A stretch of DNA of 40,117 nucleotides, taken from NCBI GenBank assembly GCA_020425515.1, contig JAGQRI010000016.1, forward strand, positions 1-40,117, given 5' to 3'. Both the position numbers and the translations under genes were made by a program. Each line of letters begins with the position of its first letter. Position 1 is the first letter of the stretch. Shown here piece after piece: positions 1,383 to 33,500 of the stretch. The notes below the pieces were generated by a model that saw nothing but the letters and a program-made list of their open reading frames with translations, made no database searches and was not told where the DNA came from. Source of the stretch: Planctomycetota bacterium. Lineage in GTDB: Bacteria > Planctomycetota > UBA8742 > UBA2392.

Positions 1383-2465
1383 TCACGCGGGCAATCCGGC
1401 CAGCGCTTGCTGTGCTTTTTCGACCCACTCCGGCAGCCCCCGCTCGCGCCCGAGCCGGACCGCGCGCCGCAACGAAGCCGCGGCCTCGGCGTGGCGACCC
1501 AGTTTGATCTGCACCTTGCCGAGCGAGACGCTGATCGTGCATTCCGCCTCGGGCAGCCCGCTCCTGTGGCAGACGTCGACGCAGCGGGCCATGGTGTCGG
1601 CAGCGGCTTCCAGCTCGCCCAGTTCATTCAGCGCGCGCCCCAGGCCCTGCAGCGATGCGACAAGATAGCGCGTGAGCCCGACCCCCTCATAGGTTTCGAG
1701 CGCGCGGCTGAACCACTGTTTCGCCTCGGCGAAGCGCCCGGTGCGCGAGGCCGCCATCCCCAGGGTGTTCTGCGCCCCGCCCAGGTAGCGCTTGTCGTCG
1801 ATGCTTTCCGCCACCGGCAGCACGCCGCGCAGCATGGTTTCCGCCTCGGCGATCTTTCCTTCCTCGAGCAGGATGCGCGCCAGCGCGTTGCGTGTCAGCG
1901 CCAACTGGACCGGATCGCCGGCGCTCTCGTGCAGCGCGACGGCCTGCTCAAGGATGCGCTGCCCGGGCTCGCGCTCTTTCAGCATGAACCGGATCATCGC
2001 GCGCCCGCGCAGGACCTTGCCCCGGTAGACGTCGTCTTCACTCAGCCGCTCGCACTCGTCCAGCAGGCGCAGCCCGCGCTCGCGGTCGAACACGGTTGCG
2101 TGGATCGCAAGTTCGTACAGCGCCTCGCGCCGCGCGCCGGAGCGCTCGGGCAACAGCCCTGTCAGCCGTTCCAGCGCGGCGACGGCCTCCGGCATCTGGT
2201 CGCGCGAAAGCGCGTACCGATAGCCGGTATCGAGGTAGCGGCACTCGGCCTGCAACAGCTCGGCGTCGTCCGACTCGCCCCGCGCCAGTTGCGCATGCCC
2301 GGCGAGTTCCAGCGCATGGGGCGTAAGCGCGTCTTCCGCCAGGCAGCTTTCGAAGGCGCTGATGGCAAGCCGGTGCAGCTCGCCGCGTTCGGTGGGCAGG
2401 TGCAGCTCGTAGGCCGCGTCGCGCACCAGGGCGTGGACGAACAGATAGGCTTGTTCTGCGGACAT
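1383..2465 (-). CDS. TPR protein with orphan STAND-ATPase tail motif (downstream paralog)
   Basis: A 360-residue soluble protein made mostly of alpha-helical TPR-like repeats (pattern A..LG..A...GR..EA). It starts at the motif YLFVHALVRDAAYELHLP, which in STAND/AAA-type proteins such as MalT-like regulators and adenylate-cyclase-associated ATPases sits just behind the ATPase and leads into TPRs. No ATPase precedes it: an in-frame TAG lies only two codons before this ATG. It is a paralog of the gene just upstream (2472-3926), in the same reading frame and six bases away, so translation is probably coupled. It is the last gene of the STAS/TPR operon. A protein-protein interaction role is inferred; the partner is unknown. 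Confidence 0.8.
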   Translation of the reverse strand: MSAEQAYLFVHALVRDAAYELHLPTERGELHRLAISAFESCLAEDALTPHALELAGHAQLARGESDDAELLQAECRYLDTGYRYALSRDQMPEAVAALERLTGLLPERSGARREALYELAIHATVFDRERGLRLLDECERLSEDDVYRGKVLRGRAMIRFMLKEREPGQRILEQAVALHESAGDPVQLALTRNALARILLEEGKIAEAETMLRGVLPVAESIDDKRYLGGAQNTLGMAASRTGRFAEAKQWFSRALETYEGVGLTRYLVASLQGLGRALNELGELEAAADTMARCVDVCHRSGLPEAECTISVSLGKVQIKLGRHAEAAASLRRAVRLGRERGLPEWVEKAQQALAGLPA

Positions 2466-2471
2466 CGCCCC

Positions 2472-3926
2472 CTACTGTCCCGCCGCCGCTTCCCAGCGCT
2501 TGACCATTGCTTCCCAATCCTGGTTCGCACCGTTTTCCGCGAGGGCTTTGGCGCCCGACTCCCACAACGGGCGTGCTTCGTCTTCCCGGCCGCGGCGACG
2601 CAAAACCACGGCCTGCCCCGCATGAATGGCCCCCTGGAGGCGCGGGTCGTGAAAGCGCTCAGAGAGCCGCTCGGCTTCGTCGAGGTGCAGGGCGGCGACG
2701 TCCGTTGCATCCTGGTCGAGCCGGATGATTGCCAGGTTGGTCAGCCAGAAGACTTCCATGCGGATCGACCTCACCGCACGTGCCAGCTCGAGCGCTTCAA
2801 CCATGCAGGCTTCCGCTTCGTCCAGTCGACCGTGCTTGTGGTAAAGGTCGCCGAGGTTCCCGAGCTGTAGCGCGGCTCCCGCCCGGTCACCGAGTTCGCG
2901 GATGATCCGAAGCGTCTCCAGGTAGAGTTTCTCGGCCTCGGCAAAGTCGCCGCGTCTTCCCATCAGCATCGCCAGGCCCGCGAGCTGAGATGCCCTCAGG
3001 TCCAGGTTGCCGACACGCTGCGCGATCTTGAGTCCCTCGCTAAAACACTCCCACGCTTCCGCCGGGTCGCTGCGGCTGAGGGCACTGCCCAATGAGCTCA
3101 GGCACATGGCGGTTTCCGGCTCTGAGCCGATCTTCCGGAACAGCGCCAGCGATTCCCGTAGAGCGGCCAATCCTTTTTCAGGCTGGTTCCGCAACACACA
3201 GGTTCCACCGATGCTCAGCAAAACCACGGCGCGCCCGCGATCGGTCCCCAGTTGGTCGGAAAGCTCCAGCGCCTCGTGATAGCAGGCGTCCGCTTTCTCG
3301 AACTGCCCCATGGCGCGGTAGAGCCCGCCGGCGTCGCTGAGCAGGCCTGCCAGGCGGGTGATGTCGCCGGCCTCGCGGATAGGCGGGATGAAGCGCTCAA
3401 GGATCTCCAGTGCTTCTTCGTGCCGCCCGACACGCCCCAGGATCCACGCCAGGCGCTTGCCGGCATCGGACTGCAGCAGCGGATCACCGATTTTGTCGGC
3501 GGCATCGACGAGCTGACGGCATGTTTCTATCCCCACGCGATACCGTGCCGCCGCGTCCTCGATGAGGGTCAACTCGTTGAGCGCGTCAAAGCGCCGGCGC
3601 GGCTCGGTGGCCAACTCGAGCTTGCGTCGCACGTGGCGCTCGGCCTCGTCATGCATGAACTGCCGGCGCGCGCGCCTGGCGGCGATTCCGCGCCAGTGTG
3701 ACTCGCGGGATGCGAGGTCACCGGTCGCCGAGCCGAACTCGGCTGCGAGTTGAGCGTGCTCAGCGGCTTCGGCGGCGTGGCTCTCGGCCAGCTCTTTGTC
3801 CGAGAGGTTCTCGAACGCCTCCAGCGCCAGCGCGTGCAGCCGCCCCCGCGCCTCAACGGGCAGCAGCTGGTAAGCCGCATCCCGCACCAGGGCATGACGA
3901 AAGAGATAAACCTGCTCAGCATCCAT
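2472..3926 (-). CDS. TPR protein with orphan STAND-ATPase tail motif (upstream paralog)
   Basis: A 484-residue soluble protein with no signal peptide or membrane segment. Residues about 6-40 hold YLFRHALVRDAAYQLLP followed by R..LH.LA, the helical motif that normally follows the nucleotide-binding domain of STAND ATPases. The rest is a long TPR array with repeats such as GD..G A...Y..AL.L.R and an A..LGNLGDLY.KHGR.DEA unit near 360-380. The start is fixed: an in-frame TAA lies four codons upstream of the ATG, so no ATPase is encoded in cis. It ends with an amber TAG two codons before the next paralog in the same frame. The gap to the poly-STAS gene upstream is 26 bases, which suggests one transcript. 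Function is inferred to be a scaffold or sensor arm for partner proteins. Confidence 0.8.
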   Translation of the reverse strand: MDAEQVYLFRHALVRDAAYQLLPVEARGRLHALALEAFENLSDKELAESHAAEAAEHAQLAAEFGSATGDLASRESHWRGIAARRARRQFMHDEAERHVRRKLELATEPRRRFDALNELTLIEDAAARYRVGIETCRQLVDAADKIGDPLLQSDAGKRLAWILGRVGRHEEALEILERFIPPIREAGDITRLAGLLSDAGGLYRAMGQFEKADACYHEALELSDQLGTDRGRAVVLLSIGGTCVLRNQPEKGLAALRESLALFRKIGSEPETAMCLSSLGSALSRSDPAEAWECFSEGLKIAQRVGNLDLRASQLAGLAMLMGRRGDFAEAEKLYLETLRIIRELGDRAGAALQLGNLGDLYHKHGRLDEAEACMVEALELARAVRSIRMEVFWLTNLAIIRLDQDATDVAALHLDEAERLSERFHDPRLQGAIHAGQAVVLRRRGREDEARPLWESGAKALAENGANQDWEAMVKRWEAAAGQ

Positions 3927-3952
3927 CGCGGGAGTTTAGCAGAGGGATGCGG

Positions 3953-5863
3953 TCACGCCTCTTCCCGCTTGCGGCGTATCCACGACAACGCCGATTTGAG
4001 GTCCGGCAGGCGGGGCAACTGCCGGCACTTGCTGTCGAATTCGAGCCAGGTCTGGAGCTTCCGTGGCACGGCGATCAGCACGAGACTGCCGCCGCGGTCC
4101 CGGCAGGCCTTCGCCACCGCGGCCAGGCTGAGAGTTCCCAGATCGTCGAGCGTCTGCACCTCGGACAGGTCCAGCACCAGGTCGCGCACGCCGGCCTTGA
4201 ACACGTCGTTGCATTGACGCTCGAAATCGTCCAACGCGGGACCCAGCCCCATGCGGCCGGCAAGGCGTATTCGTTTGCAGCCGTCGATCCCTGTCTCCTC
4301 GACGCCCTGCACCAGCGTGTTGCGAAAACCGATGATCTCGGCGGCGCTGCGCTGGGCGGCCTCGGCGTTGTCGTACCACTCGAAGACGGACTCGGCGTTC
4401 TTGAAGGCCTGGCGGAATTCCGGCGTGGCGCCGGCGACCATTACGCAGCCGCCGTTTTCCATCATCAGGCGCGACATGGCGGCCAGGTTCTCGACGTTGG
4501 CGCGGTCCACGGCGCGGGTGCCGGCGGGTTCCAGGATGATGAAGCTGTCCTCCGGCTCCAGCAGCGCGAGGATCGCCGCGCGTACGCGTGGCGTGCGAGG
4601 CTCCAGCAGGTCGCCGCGCAGGACGACGTGCACGGCCCGAATCCACGGCAGGCGCCGCGCATACACCACGATGTCGTCGTCGTGCAGCGAGCGCAGGTGT
4701 GCCTCGGCGTCCGCGCGGGTTTCAAACATGCGCCAGTATTGCCGCTGCTCGGCAAAGGGCTCGCGGATGCCGTAGAAGACCACGGTGCCGCCTTTCGCGG
4801 CCGTCCTGGAAAGCGCGCCATGGAAACTGGAAGCAACCGAGTCAATGCCGGCGCCGTCCACAATCAACCAGCGCGGCACGCCGTGCTCGGCAAAGATGGC
4901 GTTGAATTCACTCTCAAACGGGGCACCAAGAATGCCTTGCTGGTCCACTGCGATGACCAGTGAATCATCAAGCCCACCCGGTTCGACGTGGGTGACGGTG
5001 CGGGGCAGATCGCGGCCATACACCTTCTGCCAACGCTTCGACTCATCCGCAGGCGCTGACACATGATCCAGTGCAGCCTCAATCGACTCAAACTCCGGGA
5101 AGTAGCGGCTGTAGCCCAGCATGTCGAAGACAGGTCGCCACGCGCGGGAGACGTTGCAAATCGACCAACTGCCACCGCTCCTCTGAACATCGTCAGCAAC
5201 AGCAATGAAACTGGCCTCGCCAATCGACGTCATGGCCTTCACCCGGCCCGCTTCCCAGAAAAAGTGCACGTAGCCCTCATCCCGTCGCTGCCTTACCCAG
5301 GATTCGAAAAAGATGACCTGTGGGGCACTCAAACGCCCGTCAAACTCAACTACCAGGTAGTCAGGCCGGTCGGCGATTGTGAAAGCCGTGAGTTTCAGGA
5401 CGGGATTGCCCGGCTGTTCTGATTGCGCACCGTCTAGTCCCGGTTCGAAATTCAGTTTCCAGCCGCGACGCGCGAGCCTTTCGATCAGCCCGATGTGGCG
5501 TACGGCAGTTTCCTGATCACCCGCGAATCCGAACTGTGCGGCCTCGACGTCCCCCGTCGGCAGCAGTTCATAGGAGTCCCGGCAATGCCTGGGCATGCCG
5601 ACAAAAACAACCCGCCCTCTTCGTTCAAGTACAAGCTCGTTCAGGATGATCATCGGCTGAAAGCCGAGTTCGCCAAACGACTGTACCGCGGCAACGTCGA
5701 GAACGATCCAGTGATACCCCTCATCAATGCGATTGCGGATGGTGCTCTTGACCACGTCCAGGGATTCGCCGAGGTCAACCCATCCCTCAAGTTGAAAGAA
5801 CCACGCGTGCGGCACGTCGAGGGCGTGAGAATCGACGATTCGGCATTCAGGTGTGTTACGCAT
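3953..5863 (-). CDS. Poly-STAS protein, about five STAS-like domains
   Basis: A 636-residue cytosolic protein built of repeated STAS-like (anti-sigma-factor-antagonist) modules at roughly 7-115, 150-270, 290-400, 410-515 and 524-630. The clearest is the last, with KRIRLAGRMG at its start and DLVLDLSEVQTLDDLG at the core strand/loop. In SpoIIAA-type STAS domains this loop reads DSSG and its serine is phosphorylated. Here only the second domain keeps a comparable Ser/Thr (TSIGEA near 213); the others have acidic or other residues (GELG, DDLG). I chose the ATG at 5863 rather than the GTG at 5884 because AGGA lies six bases before it and the N-terminus then aligns with the neighbouring paralog (RI[VL][DE]S.ALD.P.AWF). 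It sits 40 bases behind that paralog and 26 bases before a TPR gene. Known STAS domains bind anti-sigma factors or kinases, or form stressosomes; the partner here is unknown. Confidence 0.8.
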   Translation of the reverse strand: MRNTPECRIVDSHALDVPHAWFFQLEGWVDLGESLDVVKSTIRNRIDEGYHWIVLDVAAVQSFGELGFQPMIILNELVLERRGRVVFVGMPRHCRDSYELLPTGDVEAAQFGFAGDQETAVRHIGLIERLARRGWKLNFEPGLDGAQSEQPGNPVLKLTAFTIADRPDYLVVEFDGRLSAPQVIFFESWVRQRRDEGYVHFFWEAGRVKAMTSIGEASFIAVADDVQRSGGSWSICNVSRAWRPVFDMLGYSRYFPEFESIEAALDHVSAPADESKRWQKVYGRDLPRTVTHVEPGGLDDSLVIAVDQQGILGAPFESEFNAIFAEHGVPRWLIVDGAGIDSVASSFHGALSRTAAKGGTVVFYGIREPFAEQRQYWRMFETRADAEAHLRSLHDDDIVVYARRLPWIRAVHVVLRGDLLEPRTPRVRAAILALLEPEDSFIILEPAGTRAVDRANVENLAAMSRLMMENGGCVMVAGATPEFRQAFKNAESVFEWYDNAEAAQRSAAEIIGFRNTLVQGVEETGIDGCKRIRLAGRMGLGPALDDFERQCNDVFKAGVRDLVLDLSEVQTLDDLGTLSLAAVAKACRDRGGSLVLIAVPRKLQTWLEFDSKCRQLPRLPDLKSALSWIRRKREEA

Positions 5864-5903
5864 CGGAGGTCCTGCCGTGTGCACGAGATTCCAGCCACTA
5901 CCG

Positions 5904-7490
5904 TCAACTCATGGCCGTGAACTCGTCGTCGATGAATTCGAGCGCGCCCTGGGGTGAGGCGAAATAGCTGTAAACCCTGTCGCCACCGCCTTTGCCTAAG
6001 CTGTCGCGCAGCCCGGGTGAGGCGCCGGCGATGGCCAGCAACCCGCCACGTCTTTTCAGCATTTCGGCGGCGTGCGTTATCTGCAACTCGACCTCGGGCG
6101 CGAGTGTTTCGGTCTCGCCGGCATCCAGCACCAGGTAGCGCAGCCACTCCAGCGCCAGGAAATCATCGAGATAGCGCTTCAATTGCTTCTCGGCATCCGA
6201 GCCCAGGTTCTTTGCAAGTTCGGCGACCGCGGCCTGGAGGTGGTGGAAGCGGTGGACGTGTCGAACCCAGGCGGGCTCCTTCGCCACGACGGCCCGCAGC
6301 GAGTTGAGGGCGCCCTCAAGCAATTCGTAGTGCTCGAAGGCGGAGTAGCAGTCGTGTGCCTTGAGCTGCCCGGCCAGCGAGTCGGACAGCCCCGCCAGCG
6401 CCACGCAACCGCCGCGCTGGATCATCTTGCCCGCCCAGGCCAGCAGCCAGGCCTCCGCGCCTTCGTCGAGCGCCGCGAGATTGCTGACGTCGAGAAGCAG
6501 GTAGCGGGACAGGGGCGAACAGGCGAGGTTCAACCGCGTATCGAACCCGGCAACCTGCGCCTCGGTGACCGCACCGCTGAGTGCGGCCTCGGCAGTCGCC
6601 CCACGCACGTGCACGGCGACGTCAAGCTGCCCGGGCACAGGAGCCTCGGCGATCGGCGGTACGGGTCGTTCCGGAACCGACCCCGCGGGTGCGGCGGTCA
6701 TTGTCTCCAGCGCTGCTTCCACGGTGGGATACATGTCAAACAGCGAACCGAACCCGAGCATGTCGAAAATGGCCGTAAGCTTCGGGTGCGCATGGCAGAC
6801 CGCCCAGCGGCGCCCGTGCCGCTCCGCGAGATCCGCACGCATCAAGAAGCTACCCTCGCCGGTCGAACTAAGGTACCTGGTCTGGTGGAGGTCCCAGATG
6901 TAGTCGATGTAGCCTTCCTCCTCGCGCTGCTTGAGCCAGCTTTCGTACCAGATCACGTTCGTCGCGTTCAGTGCCCCACTCATCTCAACAAGCAGGTGGC
7001 CCGGTAGATCGGGCATCGCGTAGGCGGTCAGTTGCAGCGGGTCTGATTTCCACTTGTCGTCCGGTTCGCGCCGGGCGTGGGATACGCACAACAGCACGCG
7101 CCCGTTGTCGGCGAGTTGTTTCAACTCACGCATCCGGTCCAGCGCGGTTTTCAGGTCGGCGGCGAAGACGAAGCGGTCGTCCATCTTCAGAAGCTCGAAT
7201 GTCGCATGCACGCGCTTTGGCATGCCGGCAAACAGCAGCTTGCCGCCGTTCTTTTCGAGCGCGTCGTTGAGCACCGTAACCAAACCGTAGCCGAGGTCGG
7301 CGTAAGAGCCAACCTTCGCCACGTCGAGCACCATCCAGCGGCAGCCTTGCTCGACTCTGGTGCGCGCTTCCTGCTCGAACGCGCCGAGAGTTTCGCCGCC
7401 GTCGAGCGCGCCGTGCAGTTTCATGAACCAGGCGTCCGGGAAATCGAGCGCGCGCGATTCGAGAATGCGGGTTTCAGCGAAGCCGGCCAT
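5904..7490 (-). CDS. Poly-STAS protein, about four STAS-like domains
   Basis: A 528-residue cytosolic paralog of the next gene. STAS-like modules lie at about 5-115, 150-260, 285-385 and 395-525, each with a hydrophobic strand ending in VLD or LLD (WMVLDVAKV, YLLLDVSNL, YLVLDAGET) and a following helix. Only the second keeps the serine-rich switch loop, SSTGEG near residue 208; the third has DEGAE and the fourth APEVE, so most copies are unlikely to be phosphorylated in the usual way. The ATG at 7490 is nine bases after the stop of the preceding small gene and has no strong ribosome site, which suggests translational coupling. Two multi-STAS proteins followed by two TPR proteins point to a signalling or scaffold complex (inference). 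Confidence 0.78.
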   Translation of the reverse strand: MAGFAETRILESRALDFPDAWFMKLHGALDGGETLGAFEQEARTRVEQGCRWMVLDVAKVGSYADLGYGLVTVLNDALEKNGGKLLFAGMPKRVHATFELLKMDDRFVFAADLKTALDRMRELKQLADNGRVLLCVSHARREPDDKWKSDPLQLTAYAMPDLPGHLLVEMSGALNATNVIWYESWLKQREEEGYIDYIWDLHQTRYLSSTGEGSFLMRADLAERHGRRWAVCHAHPKLTAIFDMLGFGSLFDMYPTVEAALETMTAAPAGSVPERPVPPIAEAPVPGQLDVAVHVRGATAEAALSGAVTEAQVAGFDTRLNLACSPLSRYLLLDVSNLAALDEGAEAWLLAWAGKMIQRGGCVALAGLSDSLAGQLKAHDCYSAFEHYELLEGALNSLRAVVAKEPAWVRHVHRFHHLQAAVAELAKNLGSDAEKQLKRYLDDFLALEWLRYLVLDAGETETLAPEVELQITHAAEMLKRRGGLLAIAGASPGLRDSLGKGGGDRVYSYFASPQGALEFIDDEFTAMS

Positions 7491-7841: not shown

Positions 7842-7968
7842 GGGGACTGTCCCTGATTTTGGGGACTGTCCCCGTCTTCGAATACTGTTTGTCGGACCCT
7901 CGATAACAACTGGCAACTGCCCAGTGCTTCGACTACAGGGACAGTCCCCAACTGCGGGGACAGTCCCT
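7842..7968. repeat. Palindromic repeat cluster GGGGACNGTCCCC, four copies in inverted arrangement
   Basis: Four near-identical 13-base palindromes lie at about 7842-7854, 7861-7873, 7937-7949 and 7956-7968. The first pair reads GGGGACTGTCCC and the second pair reads GGGACAGTCCC, so the block as a whole is an inverted repeat able to fold into a long hairpin. The last copy overlaps the TAG stop of the cyclophilin gene. Such motifs are common as dispersed intergenic REP-like elements in several phyla and are often mobilised by RAYT transposases (established for REPs in general); no transposase is in the window. Confidence 0.75.
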
Positions 7969-8800
7969 ATTCGACCGTGATTTCCACCTTCTGCATGTGG
8001 TACTTGCCGGCGTTGCTTTCGGAGGCTCCGATCTGCATCACCGCGTCCATGCCCTCGACCACCTTGCCGAACACCGTGTACTGGTTGTCGAGGCTGGCAC
8101 AGTCGGCCGTGCATATAAAGTACTGGCTGCCGGCGCTGTGCGGGTCGCTGGTGCGGGCCATGCTGAGAATGCCCGGGTCGTGGTGGATCTCATTGAACTC
8201 GGCCGGGATGCGATAGCCGGGGCCGCCGCTGCCGCTGCCCGTGGGGTCGCCGCCCTGGATCACGAAACCCGGCACCACGCGGTGATAGCCGATCCCGTCG
8301 AAGTAACCCTTCTGCGCGAGCTGCACGAAACTCAGCACGTGGTTCATGGCGCGGTCGGCGAAGAACTCCAGCTTGATCGCCCCGGCCTCGGTCGCGATGT
8401 TCGCGTACAGCTTCTTGCCGCCGGCGTGAACCTTCACCGGCACGCGGTTGCTGACCTCCATCTCCGTGCCTTCGAAGTACGGGTGGATGTTGCCCTTGGG
8501 TCTATAGAAAGCCTCGATCAGTTGCCCGTGCGGGTCCACGGCCGGGATCTCGATCATGCCGCTGACCGATTCGCCGGGTGGCAGCTTGACCTCCTCGGCG
8601 TCGCCGCTGATGCGCACCAGGAAGCTCTCCGGCGTGAGCGCGTCCGGGCGCCGCGTGACGTGCAGGCTGACACTGGGCAGGCAGAACTCGGGCTTCGGGT
8701 ACACGGCGGGCGCGCCGCCCTCGTTCGTGACGGTCACCTCGGCGCGGATGGTCTCGCCCAGGTTGTAGGTGTCCTTGTCCAGCTTCAGCGCAACGGCCAT
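7967..8800 (-). CDS. Cyclophilin-type peptidyl-prolyl cis-trans isomerase with N-terminal Ig-like domain
   Basis: A 277-residue protein. Residues 1-125 look like an all-beta domain (KLDKDTYNLGETIRAEVTVT, with a P..G....I. pattern). Residues about 130-277 are a cyclophilin: YHRVVPGFVIQGGDPTGSGS, GPGYRIPAEF, LSMAR, AGSQYFI and NQYTVFGKVVEGMD are the family's catalytic and binding blocks, including the R and Q residues. It catalyses proline isomerisation during protein folding. The ATG at 8800 is chosen over the upstream open frame because AAGGAG lies five bases before it; no signal peptide follows, so it is probably cytosolic. The stop codon lies inside a palindromic repeat, so the last few codons may have been altered by insertion. 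It sits 57 bases behind a large membrane-anchored protein gene. Confidence 0.92.
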   Translation of the reverse strand: MAVALKLDKDTYNLGETIRAEVTVTNEGGAPAVYPKPEFCLPSVSLHVTRRPDALTPESFLVRISGDAEEVKLPPGESVSGMIEIPAVDPHGQLIEAFYRPKGNIHPYFEGTEMEVSNRVPVKVHAGGKKLYANIATEAGAIKLEFFADRAMNHVLSFVQLAQKGYFDGIGYHRVVPGFVIQGGDPTGSGSGGPGYRIPAEFNEIHHDPGILSMARTSDPHSAGSQYFICTADCASLDNQYTVFGKVVEGMDAVMQIGASESNAGKYHMQKVEITVE

Positions 8801-8857
8801 GGCATCTCCTTGTCGAATACGCCGAACATGCCATGCCCGCACCCGCACGCCAACACG

Positions 8858-27379: not shown

Positions 27380-29449
27380 TCAAGACAGCACAATGGTGCT
27401 GGTCTCGTCGGCTTTGATATCTACCGAATACATGAAATCAAAGTGATCCCAACTTAGCTCGGTATCCGAAACGCGCACGACACCCACGACGTAATGCCCG
27501 GGAGGTACGAAAACCAAACGGAAGTTCCCCTTATCATCTATCGCCGCACGCAAGCCATCGGTGCCAAGACGCGGCGGGTCCGCAGGATCAACCTTGCATG
27601 CGACCAACAGGTAGTCGGCATCAGACAAGCGTTTCTGGATATCGACCTTGCCTTCGAGAACACCATACTGGGCATGCTGCTTGTCCAGCACCAGTTGGGT
27701 ATCTTGCTGTTGCACGTAGACAACCTGGTTTGTCGGACTCACGACCGTAGCACCGCGGCTGGCATCCAGTTCGACTACTCCGTCGCGGTCAACCAGCGAA
27801 CAAGAAAATGGATAGCTTCTCGCGACGAAACTGTCCCCGGGGACAAGGTCCGCGACGCGCCGTGCTTCGCGCGCGGCGTACAGCGGCAGATAACCCGGGA
27901 AAGCCAGACACTTGCCGCGTGTCGGAAAACCCTTCGCAACGCCGTCGCCAACCCAGGACGAATGGAGGCTGACTCCGTTCAGATTCAGACGACAGGCCTT
28001 CGAAGGTCCCAGCGTCGCGGCCGCATATTCAATTTGGGTAGGTTGCCCTTTTCCAATGTACAACTCGAAGATTTCGGGGAAGTAGCCCGTCTGCGCGATT
28101 GCCAGCTTCGTGTTTCCGGTACCCACACCGTTTATGAGTAGATTGCGCCCCTCCGGCGCCTGCGGCCACTGATCGGTGAACCTGGGGCCGGACCAGCGAA
28201 TGGCGTCACCAGTTGGAGGCAGCGCCCAGAAAGCACCTGAACACCCTTCAGGGCCTGCGACATGAATGCTTCCCGAAGCAGACAGGTACAGGTCGTAGGC
28301 CGTATTGCGATGCTCAAGGAAAGGGTAGGCGTTCTGGCCCGTGACGGATTGATAGGTCGAGTAGCCTTCAGCCTCGGCGGTCAGGGCATAACGACCCGAC
28401 TCAACCCTCAGCACCAGAATGCCGCTTTCACCCGTCATGCCTGCGGCTGCCAATTCTGACTCACCACGGTGCCTAAGCGTCAGCTTTGCCCGCGGGATCG
28501 GCGTGCCGCTGTCCTTGTCCAGCACCCGGATTTTGATCAGCGGGCTGTGCGGTTTGAGAAGAATTCGCAGGCCGGCCCTCCCATCGGAAGGAACAGTCAC
28601 CGACTGCGTATCGTATCCGGTGTGAAGGACCTCCAATGCGACGTCGCCGGTGCGCGAAGGGCCCCATCCGGGTTCACGAATCGTGAATGCGCCTTGTACG
28701 TCCGTGGTCACGGCATGCCCGGGCATGCTTAGCTTGGCGGCAGCAACAGCCTCGAGCGTCTCCGCGTCGAGCACGCTCCCACCCCAGACTCGTTCCCGGT
28801 ACTCGGGGCGCAACACGAAATGTTTTCCGGCATCATCCGGTGATACGTCGATCACCCGGGGGTCGGTCTGCACCCAGTCGTCGTAGATACAAAGTAGTCG
28901 CCACTTCCCGGCCGGTACAGTGGTATCGAGCGTCTGAAAGTTACCGCCAATTGCGCCTGAACGGATGACACTGAGTTGTGTTGGACTGACAGCGTCGGGT
29001 CGCAACAGCAACCAGCGCGCCAGCCGCGGACGATACTCTGCTGGTAATTTCGCGTTGTCGATCCGAAGTGTAACAGCCACAGGAATTGACGCAGCGAGGT
29101 GAATGGTCAGATGCCGCGGTGGGCCCTCAAACACTTCGTGTGCAAAAATGCAGTCATCAGCACTGGCGGTAACTTCAAGTTTGTCCGCTTCATCAGCACC
29201 GACACTAACGCTACTGGACTGGGATGAGCGGCCCTCGACGGCAACGCCATCCTTGTACAGTATCAGGTTTATGACAGGGTCTCGCACCCCACTGCCCGAG
29301 TCAGCGGCCAACTCGATTTCCCACCGAACACCGGCACGCTGCTCTTTTGGCGAACCGGTGTTGGTGTTGTCTGATTTGGACGAACAGGAGGCAATGGATA
29401 GAACTGCCAGCAAAACAGATAGCAAGGACCCAAGAACAAGTCTCGGCAT
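27380..29449 (-). CDS. Lipoprotein with carboxypeptidase-regulatory-like beta domains
   Basis: A 689-residue lipoprotein. Signal MPRLVLGSLLSVLLAVLSIASC with Cys22 as lipidation site, then an Asn/Ser/Thr linker. Beta-rich repeats follow: WGGSVLDAETLEAVAAAKLS ... TDVQGAFTIREPG near 230-270, IKIRVLDKDSGTPIPRAKLT ... GESGILVLRVESGRYALTAE near 315-375, and a final one near 615-685 (LEGKVDIQKRL...DDKGNFRLVFVPPGHYVVGV). This is the CarboxypepD_reg/transthyretin-like pattern. I chose ATG 29449 (GTGGGGA about six bases before it) because the signal peptide then starts normally; the GTG at 29479 would add ten residues. It follows the secreted protein gene by 33 bases and is somewhat AT-richer than the window at large. 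Function unknown; its overall design resembles the protein at 8858-11917. Confidence 0.78.
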   Translation of the reverse strand: MPRLVLGSLLSVLLAVLSIASCSSKSDNTNTGSPKEQRAGVRWEIELAADSGSGVRDPVINLILYKDGVAVEGRSSQSSSVSVGADEADKLEVTASADDCIFAHEVFEGPPRHLTIHLAASIPVAVTLRIDNAKLPAEYRPRLARWLLLRPDAVSPTQLSVIRSGAIGGNFQTLDTTVPAGKWRLLCIYDDWVQTDPRVIDVSPDDAGKHFVLRPEYRERVWGGSVLDAETLEAVAAAKLSMPGHAVTTDVQGAFTIREPGWGPSRTGDVALEVLHTGYDTQSVTVPSDGRAGLRILLKPHSPLIKIRVLDKDSGTPIPRAKLTLRHRGESELAAAGMTGESGILVLRVESGRYALTAEAEGYSTYQSVTGQNAYPFLEHRNTAYDLYLSASGSIHVAGPEGCSGAFWALPPTGDAIRWSGPRFTDQWPQAPEGRNLLINGVGTGNTKLAIAQTGYFPEIFELYIGKGQPTQIEYAAATLGPSKACRLNLNGVSLHSSWVGDGVAKGFPTRGKCLAFPGYLPLYAAREARRVADLVPGDSFVARSYPFSCSLVDRDGVVELDASRGATVVSPTNQVVYVQQQDTQLVLDKQHAQYGVLEGKVDIQKRLSDADYLLVACKVDPADPPRLGTDGLRAAIDDKGNFRLVFVPPGHYVVGVVRVSDTELSWDHFDFMYSVDIKADETSTIVLS

Positions 29450-29482
29450 ACAAATCCCCACGTCATTCATGCGAAACACCTA

Positions 29483-31267
29483 CTACCCGCCGGCAGTGCC
29501 CCATTCTTCCTGGCAGGAAACCTCTAGTTCAATGCTTCTATTCCCCACTGTAACTTGCACCAACGCGGTGCCGTCGCCGGATGCACTGATGGTTAAAGGT
29601 TGTGATTCGACTCCTGCTTCTGTGAGCTGATCATACTCGACGCTGAAGTCCGGAATGTCGCTTGCGATAATCACAACGCTTACGTCCCGCGAATCCCCGA
29701 GCGCACCGCCGAAGTCCGCGTGAAACACGCTGATACCGGGCTGAATCCCCACATTGTATGAATCCAGCAGTTCCCCGTGCTCTTCGTCAGGCCACGATTC
29801 GAGTTCCCGAATGATGAAATCGCAAGGTTCTACTTCAACGTCGATTTCTCGAATAGCCACGTCGAGGTTCTCGAATCCTGACGGCATCCCGCCTTCTCTC
29901 CGAGCATTCACTGTAAACGCGCCATACGTTCCCTGCGCCGAAACACGATAATCGATGCGGCAACCGTACACCGCCGACACTTCGGCAGGGCCCGTCACTT
30001 CAGCGTCAAACTCATCGGAAACAGGCCACACGCCGAGAACTACCAGATCAAGCGGGCCGTCCGTATAGAAGTCGATTTGATACTCGGATCCGTCGGCGCT
30101 TGGATCAACATACATTGAGTATGTCTTGGAAGACCGGGGGGTAGGCAGGGGGCACATGTCTTGCGGGTCACCTACTGCGTCTTGGTCTTTGTCGGTCGGT
30201 GCAGGCTCGTCTGGCTCAGGCGGCCTGTGGTAGTCCTTCGGAGTGTCCTCCTTCTCGGTCCCCATGTAAGGCTCAATAATCATCTCCACCACTTCGGTAC
30301 CCCACCGCATGGTTTTTATGTGAGCCGTATGATCCTTTGTCGCGTTGGCTGTATTTTGATAAATCGCGCTAAAGGAAGCGCCAACCCACCGTTCGCGATC
30401 TTCGGCCTCCCCAACGGCCTGATCCAAATACCCTCTTGTTGTTACTCGGTACTCATAGTTGTTAATTGCGATAGGTGCGGTAGTCGGCGTTGTAACAGAC
30501 GTTGTCTGTGTGTAGCTGGTTGCGACTTTCAGGCCTTTGGCGACCTTGCCTGACAAGTCTACGCCACTGGTACTACCGCCCACCGTGGTAGTATAGTTTT
30601 GAGTAGCTTCGCCGCTGAATGCCCACTCCTTGGAAGTTGTAGATGAGCCGCCGTTCGGGGTAGAAGCAATCGAAAGATGGTAGTTGTGTTCCGTACCGAC
30701 CAGGTCCATTGCCGCCCAGGTACCGGAAAAGCTGAACTGAACATCGCCACCTTCAACCGTACCGTTGAGGTTCAGGTAAGTGTAACACTGCCAATAGTAT
30801 TCGGATCCACCTTCCGTATTGCCAGTACACGAAAAATTGGAGACCTTCTTCACACGCTCCGCCATGGAGCCGTCGAGGTTTTCAGCAACAGAGTCACTCA
30901 ACGATTTACCAGCCCCATGAGGCTTCATGTAGACTTCACCTTTAATTTCCAGATTGTGGCGGTAGAACGATAGAAAGCCCAGATCCGCTTGCTTTCTGTC
31001 GACCCAGCTAATCCCCACACCCAGGATCTTGAATGACCAACCTGTAGTAGTCGTATATCGATGCTGGACACCTCCGCCGTCTGGGATCGTCCCGATGTCG
31101 AAGGCACCTTGCACCCATTTGTTGCCATCCGTGATTTTGTGACGTGTCATGATTTTCTTGCGGGTCGAGATCAAGTAATCAGTATCCGGATCCGCATGCG
31201 CAACCTCACTTGCCAAGGTCGCGAACAGACTAACGGCAATTATGTAAGTGATAACAGTTTTACGCAT
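29483..31267 (-). CDS. Secreted protein of unknown function with TSP3-like calcium motif
   Basis: A 594-residue exported protein. Signal MRKTVITYIIAVSLFATLAS ... AHA, cleavage near 24. Residues about 30-350 are beta-rich and polar with many Thr/Ser/Gly (TTTTGWSFKILGVGISWVDR, ATQNYTTTVGGSTSG, SYTQTTSVTTPTTAP). Near 360-385 a Pro/Glu-rich linker leads to DKDQDAVGDPQDMCP, which matches a thrombospondin type-3 calcium-binding unit. Beta-rich segments to the end follow, with paired Cys residues. No known family. GGGGAG lies nine bases before ATG 31267 and directly touches the ATG at 31276, so the shorter start is preferred. Codon use is clearly AT-richer than flanking genes, suggesting transfer. 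Confidence 0.75.
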   Translation of the reverse strand: MRKTVITYIIAVSLFATLASEVAHADPDTDYLISTRKKIMTRHKITDGNKWVQGAFDIGTIPDGGGVQHRYTTTTGWSFKILGVGISWVDRKQADLGFLSFYRHNLEIKGEVYMKPHGAGKSLSDSVAENLDGSMAERVKKVSNFSCTGNTEGGSEYYWQCYTYLNLNGTVEGGDVQFSFSGTWAAMDLVGTEHNYHLSIASTPNGGSSTTSKEWAFSGEATQNYTTTVGGSTSGVDLSGKVAKGLKVATSYTQTTSVTTPTTAPIAINNYEYRVTTRGYLDQAVGEAEDRERWVGASFSAIYQNTANATKDHTAHIKTMRWGTEVVEMIIEPYMGTEKEDTPKDYHRPPEPDEPAPTDKDQDAVGDPQDMCPLPTPRSSKTYSMYVDPSADGSEYQIDFYTDGPLDLVVLGVWPVSDEFDAEVTGPAEVSAVYGCRIDYRVSAQGTYGAFTVNARREGGMPSGFENLDVAIREIDVEVEPCDFIIRELESWPDEEHGELLDSYNVGIQPGISVFHADFGGALGDSRDVSVVIIASDIPDFSVEYDQLTEAGVESQPLTISASGDGTALVQVTVGNRSIELEVSCQEEWGTAGG

Positions 31268-31340
31268 TGCGCCCATCTCCCCACAGATGAATTGATTTCA
31301 GTCTGACCAGCTTCGTTCTACGCAACTGATCAAGTTTGGG

Positions 31341-31496: not shown

Positions 31497-33446
<1,950 letters not shown>

Positions 33447-33500
33447 GATGTCTCTCCCTGCCGGGCTCAAAGGCCCGCGAATTCTAGTTGGAGGGATGTA

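Follow-up and report, generated by a model that had tools for sequence, protein, structure and literature searches.

The two TPR proteins P0003 and P0004, encoded on a contig of a Planctomycetota metagenome-assembled genome, probably belong to the roughly 25 detached sensor tails of that genome, parts of a split protein with the layout of soluble adenylyl cyclase (sAC, ADCY10). According to this reading, to which we assign a probability of about 0.6, a shared cyclase-STAND head would be docked in trans, and the STAS proteins encoded beside the tails would act as ligand or scaffold. As a rule, sensor and engine are joined on a single chain in STAND proteins, among them NLR-like receptors, MalT and sAC. 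The proposed layout would run from cyclase 1 and cyclase 2 through the STAND ATPase to the TPR region, with the head kept as one gene and the TPR end multiplied into many.

The window, which is the whole stretch of DNA analysed (40,117 nucleotides), is the entire contig of genome G000, and 16 genomes of its Planctomycetota family (f1), G000 included, were compared. Four minus-strand open reading frames are separated by gaps of 40, 26 and 6 bases, as given in the preliminary description, and Pfam matches to STAS and TPR bear out its account of two multi-STAS and two TPR proteins. P0001 (7490-5904) is a four-STAS protein of 528 residues (Pfam STAS, E=3e-27), and its five-STAS paralogue P0002 (5863-3953) has 636 residues counted from the ATG (E=2e-24). 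The two tails follow as P0003 (3926-2472; 484 residues; Pfam TPR, E=5e-28) and P0004 (2465-1383; 360 residues; E=2e-18). A fifth co-directional gene, overlooked earlier, lies 9 bases upstream of P0001; this "mini" gene (7832-7500, minus strand, 110 residues) encodes an aconitase/3-isopropylmalate-dehydratase (LeuC)-like fragment, which matches NCBIfam NF001614 over residues 24-80 (E=1e-8). The conserved downstream neighbour is an aconitase gene cut by the contig end (2-1165, minus strand), and the conserved upstream neighbour (7967-8848, minus strand) encodes a cyclophilin-type peptidyl-prolyl isomerase, a family named by sequence reading. A sigma-70-like promoter was sought inside the P0001-P0004 cluster and none was found; the promoters of the host may differ from the sigma-70 type. 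Elsewhere in the window, G+C falls to 0.53-0.60 over two predicted secreted or lipoprotein-like genes (27380-31276, minus strand), which adjoin a DnaK-like gene at 31497-33470.

The N-termini of P0003 and P0004 match TIGR03903 (TOMM_kin_cyc) from position 828, directly after its ATPase, so both proteins appear to derive from STAND tails, an origin already proposed in the preliminary description. Neither chain contains a P-loop ATPase, and Pfam gives only TPR and similar helical-repeat families. The tails begin with the motif MxAExAYLFRHALxRDAAY, which marks the joint between ATPase head and TPR tail in ordinary STAND proteins. The profile of this tail family (A1), built on the first 62 residues of a thin alignment of five rows, matches P0003 with E=9e-29 and P0004 with E=4e-31. 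G000 has 25 tail copies, and 15 of the 16 family genomes have 13-47 each; the profile search found none in G007. Across a phylum-wide sample of 392 genomes, in which the counts rest on the best 16 candidates per genome, only the window's family and a family designated f69 are tail-rich; elsewhere in the sample the motif occurs eight times in G273 and one to three times in other genomes. Nine genomes outside f1 and f69 were searched again, and the motif lay within frames of 837-1473 residues.

A start codon stands 6-10 codons ahead of the motif in 90 of 101 distinct tails, and intact tail frames span about 330-710 residues; the longer tail frames of f69 appear, from a reading of the sequence, to carry unrelated in-frame sequence ahead of the tail start. 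Over 97 tails, the N-terminal 40 columns hold 2.5-3.6 bits each, compared with about 1.5 in the TPR repeats. In P0003 this conserved stretch of about 40 residues, the proposed docking end, is encoded at 3807-3926 on the minus strand. The structural model of P0003 is a TPR solenoid (pLDDT 90), with LGN-type TPR proteins as the closest structures, except for residues 1-20, which at 55-58 are the lowest of the model. These worst-predicted residues are also among the most conserved. Judged by their sequences, the tails are evolving fast and under constraint. A recent tandem duplication giving P0003 and P0004 is not supported, as the two are about 32% identical and the tree, itself of poor resolution, does not place them as sisters. 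Tandem arrays of four or five tail genes, some of them nearly identical, were observed at L126 and L127 (G012), L180 (G129) and L181 (G238), which suggests rapid birth and loss of tails.

The head was first met through an AAA_16 search in tail-bearing genomes and was then searched for itself. It comprises about 800 residues, with two cyclase domains (Guanylate_cyc) and a STAND ATPase (AAA_16), and stops a few residues before the point at which the tails start; all 17 full-length heads end in GV(L/I)(I/V)PA and a short linker, followed by the stop. The best match in the PDB is human ADCY10, covering both cyclase domains (E=6e-19), and the alignment keeps DISGF, GDA, INK...DKG and VNxxAR. The head also retains Walker A and the ATPase, though it has no sensor. 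All 14 other tail-bearing genomes of f1 have the head in single copy, 13 of them at full length (64-100% identity); it is broken into two contig-end pieces in G006, and G004 has an additional partial copy at a contig end. In f69, the head is present in four of the five genomes at 58-61% identity and not clearly in G158. The f69 genomes hold many further AAA_16/STAND frames, so their tails could have other partners.

No head was found in the tail-less G007, which has only a distant relative of 30% identity, and G016-G024 gave no comparable match. The co-occurrence of head and tail in the genomes searched tracks phylogeny, and gene trees disagree on the placement of G007, which may have lost head and tails together or diverged ahead of their origin. 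G000 itself gave no head match at E≤1e-10, an absence that is not decisive for a genome that is 80.5% complete and divided into 410 contigs, and a head is presumed to be present in the window's organism. The suggestion that the partners of the four proteins are encoded elsewhere agrees with a catalytic head that is single-copy in relatives and lies away from the tails; the heads examined had no tail motif within about 1.5 kb, which also ruled out head and tail as frame-shifted neighbours.

Fused cyclase-STAND-TPR proteins from two other families, in G041 (1103 residues) and G273 (1282 residues), allow the two parts to be placed on one chain. By blastp, the head of G005 covers residues 1-763 of the G041 protein and 6-781 of the G273 protein, and P0003 covers residues 772-1060 (E=3e-19) and 791-1202 (E=9e-39), respectively. 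The separate head and tail are complementary at the junction, since they tile the fused chain with no overlap and a gap of 8-9 residues. P0004 matches the G041 protein over residues 771-888, and the head part of the fused chains is about 39% identical over 1-779.

The aconitase neighbourhoods of the family were aligned. The order is cyclophilin, mini, two multi-STAS genes, two tails and aconitase in G000; cyclophilin, mini, STAS, tail and aconitase in G004 and G006; and STAS, tail and aconitase in G011. G001 has mini, STAS and aconitase with no tail, G002 and G005 have cyclophilin, mini, tail and aconitase with no STAS gene, and in G003, G009 and G012 one or more tails precede aconitase, again with no STAS gene. 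In the tail-less G007, a single other gene separates cyclophilin from aconitase. In total, aconitase lies in the same orientation directly downstream of a tail in nine family genomes including G000, and the cyclophilin neighbour is 58-82% identical in G002, G004, G005, G006 and G007. Mini orthologues occupy the same place in G001, G002, G004, G005 and G006, and a distant one stands directly before aconitase in G013. A single STAS gene adjoins aconitase in four other genomes, three of which also have a tail. Because these orders differ, the four-gene set is not conserved: the doubled set of two STAS genes and two tails was found in G000 only, among the family genomes compared, and the STAS-tail pair is kept in three other genomes (G004, G006 and G011). 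An obligate STAS-TPR pair was rejected, given tails that stand without a STAS gene in G002, G003, G005, G009 and G012 and a STAS gene without a tail in G001. As STAS and tail are not always together, their link rests on four loci.

The dN/dS values of the mini gene (0.12-0.46) indicate purifying selection. Values of 0.17-0.35 were obtained for the single STAS genes and values below 1 for the aconitase-linked tails, whose sole close pair (G002-G003) gave 0.26, so that these genes also look selected. The simplest reading of the locus is that the ancestral order was cyclophilin-mini-aconitase, that a tail would have been inserted upstream of aconitase and a STAS gene then added beside it in some members, and that both would have been doubled in G000, where the STAS proteins turned multi-domain. 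The linkage of tails to aconitase may be mere history. A search of named genomes with the STAS alignment retrieved four Planctomycetota metagenome-assembled genomes (HKST-UBA87, MAG_44, SJ873 and ACE_PLA33), and the same search with P0001 alone as the query gave no match. Two further aconitase loci were observed. One is a second aconitase-mini pair at L228 (G003:C86), similar to the pair found in genus g6 but lying in a genus-g1 genome, possibly through contamination of the assembly; at L199/L229 (G015:C1), aconitase accompanies a divergent urocanase-like gene with another STAS protein beyond, a differently arranged STAS-aconitase vicinity.

In the STAS proteins, Pfam detects four STAS stretches each, and reading with alignment gives four domains in P0001 and five in P0002, which is 29% identical to P0001 over most of the length of both. 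The first domain (D1) of P0001 is similar to the single STAS proteins of relatives (32-37% identity), and residues 161-525 (D2-D4) match a free-standing three-STAS protein, G015:C85, at 36% identity. P0001 is modelled with moderate confidence (mean pLDDT 70); in the PDB, the SpoIIAA, RsbV and RsbS structures are matches to its STAS domains. A two-STAS protein of about 258 residues that resembles D3-D4 of P0001 occurs in several family members, for example at L194 595-1371 (G000:C103) and L202 4048-4821 (G004). A separate, strongly conserved STAS protein at L036 2727-3833 (G000:C361) has a C-terminal CxxC zinc-ribbon-like part and a canonical NSTG site; its equivalents are found in nearly all family genomes, and it lies beside VWA-domain-type and transglutaminase-like proteins, as named by sequence reading.

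The preliminary description had raised the possibility that the four genes specify a stressosome-like or partner-switching assembly. In an assembly of this kind, a multi-STAS core would hold the TPR proteins as input or output arms and be phosphorylated on Ser/Thr by a kinase encoded elsewhere. The folds resembling SpoIIAA and RsbS speak for such an assembly, and an RsbU-RsbW-RsbV-like operon is present elsewhere in the genome, at G000:C224. The phospho-acceptor column, corresponding to S58 of SpoIIAA, was read from an alignment to the genome's own RsbV; its residues are D, S, E and P in P0001 and E, S, S, R and D in P0002, so that Ser, which would also suit the assembly, occupies three of the nine window domains. 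However, the four single-STAS orthologues all have Asp there, and the matching D1 domains of the window have D or E. Given this Asp and the separate RsbU-RsbW-RsbV operon, a classical phospho-switch is unlikely for the ancestral STAS protein, and phospho-switching of the three Ser-bearing domains is possible. Furthermore, the open reading frames of 16 neighbourhoods were read and no kinase or phosphatase was seen in the conserved locus, P0001 lies barely above the cut-off of the broad family TIGR00377 and P0002 below it, and the TPR partner is accounted for by another family. Taken together, a stressosome-like assembly now seems improbable.

Two other explanations concern the tails. Head and tails could be independent: the cyclase of the head would be constitutively free, as in truncated sAC, and ordinary TPR adaptors of STAND-tail descent would make up the tails. 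The activity of truncated human sAC (PMC12802110) is in keeping with this, as is the low identity among the aconitase-linked tails (about 30%, against about 65-93% for the genes around them). It does not readily explain why the best-conserved part of the tails is their non-repeat N-terminal end, which is poorly predicted alone, why a head without any sensor keeps Walker A and its ATPase, or why the presence of head and tail coincides in the genomes searched, and we regard independence as unlikely, though less so than the stressosome. The tails could also be decaying remnants of STAND genes, which would fit their fast divergence and turnover, their scattered positions and the tandem arrays; their intact frames, uniform starts and the dN/dS of 0.26, obtained from one close pair, make decay very improbable.

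In the split-protein mechanism that we favour, the tail end of about 40 residues (YLFRHALxRDAAY...R..LH), which follows the head directly in the fused relatives, would dock in trans on the head that all tails share. Through its TPR solenoid, each tail would bind a ligand of its own and switch the ATPase, and hence cyclic-nucleotide synthesis. For human sAC, the full-length form is less active than the tail-less form, the protein truncated after the cyclases is active, and the C-terminal part of the full-length protein is thought to restrain the cyclase (PMC12802110). The STAS proteins, with an acidic residue at the phospho-site, would most likely act as a ligand or scaffold that is for the most part unswitched and binds either the neighbouring tails or the complex once assembled. 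The STAS-type partners HsbA, BgrV and SiaC control a nucleotide cyclase (PMC8457831), and this precedent makes the binding of a STAS protein to a tail a plausible input. A fuller version, in which one shared head serves dozens of fast-evolving plug-in tails, the STAS proteins are the cognate ligands of the tails and cyclic-nucleotide signalling proceeds without phosphorylation, is offered tentatively, at slightly less than even odds.

If the pieces reassemble, one engine could take input from many interchangeable sensors, and sensors could be added or swapped without altering the enzyme. Such a natural split would be a new route to a large bacterial receptor repertoire, would offer separable parts for ADCY10-type biochemistry, and would account for dozens of TPR genes that are otherwise anonymous in the Planctomycetota genomes compared. 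The literature searched, from which subscription papers were mostly absent, yielded no split protein of the STAND or sAC type whose TPR tails act in trans, so novelty is unproven.

Among known systems, ADCY10 has the same layout, with C1-C2 cyclases followed by AAA_16 in the head, and the fused Planctomycetota relatives add the TPR end; human sAC likewise contains a STAND/P-loop part (PMC12802110). The difference is that the chain here is cut between ATPase and tail, with one head gene and many unlinked tail genes. The N-terminus and repeats of the tails align after the ATPase of TIGR03903 and AfsR, whereas the known members of the MalT/AfsR/TIGR03903 group have ATPase and sensor in one chain and the tails here have neither ATPase nor effector. 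The HsbA-HsbD, BgrV-BgrR and SiaC-SiaD pairs also place a STAS-type protein beside a cyclase-linked component (PMC8457831), but these involve diguanylate cyclases under the control of STAS phosphorylation, in contrast to the Asp of the single STAS proteins and the kinase-free locus described here. The stressosome (RsbR/RsbS/RsbT) and RsbV/RsbW share with the window STAS domains that occur several per protein or complex; they differ from it in that the conserved single STAS here has no acceptor Ser/Thr and its locus no RsbT-like kinase or phosphatase.
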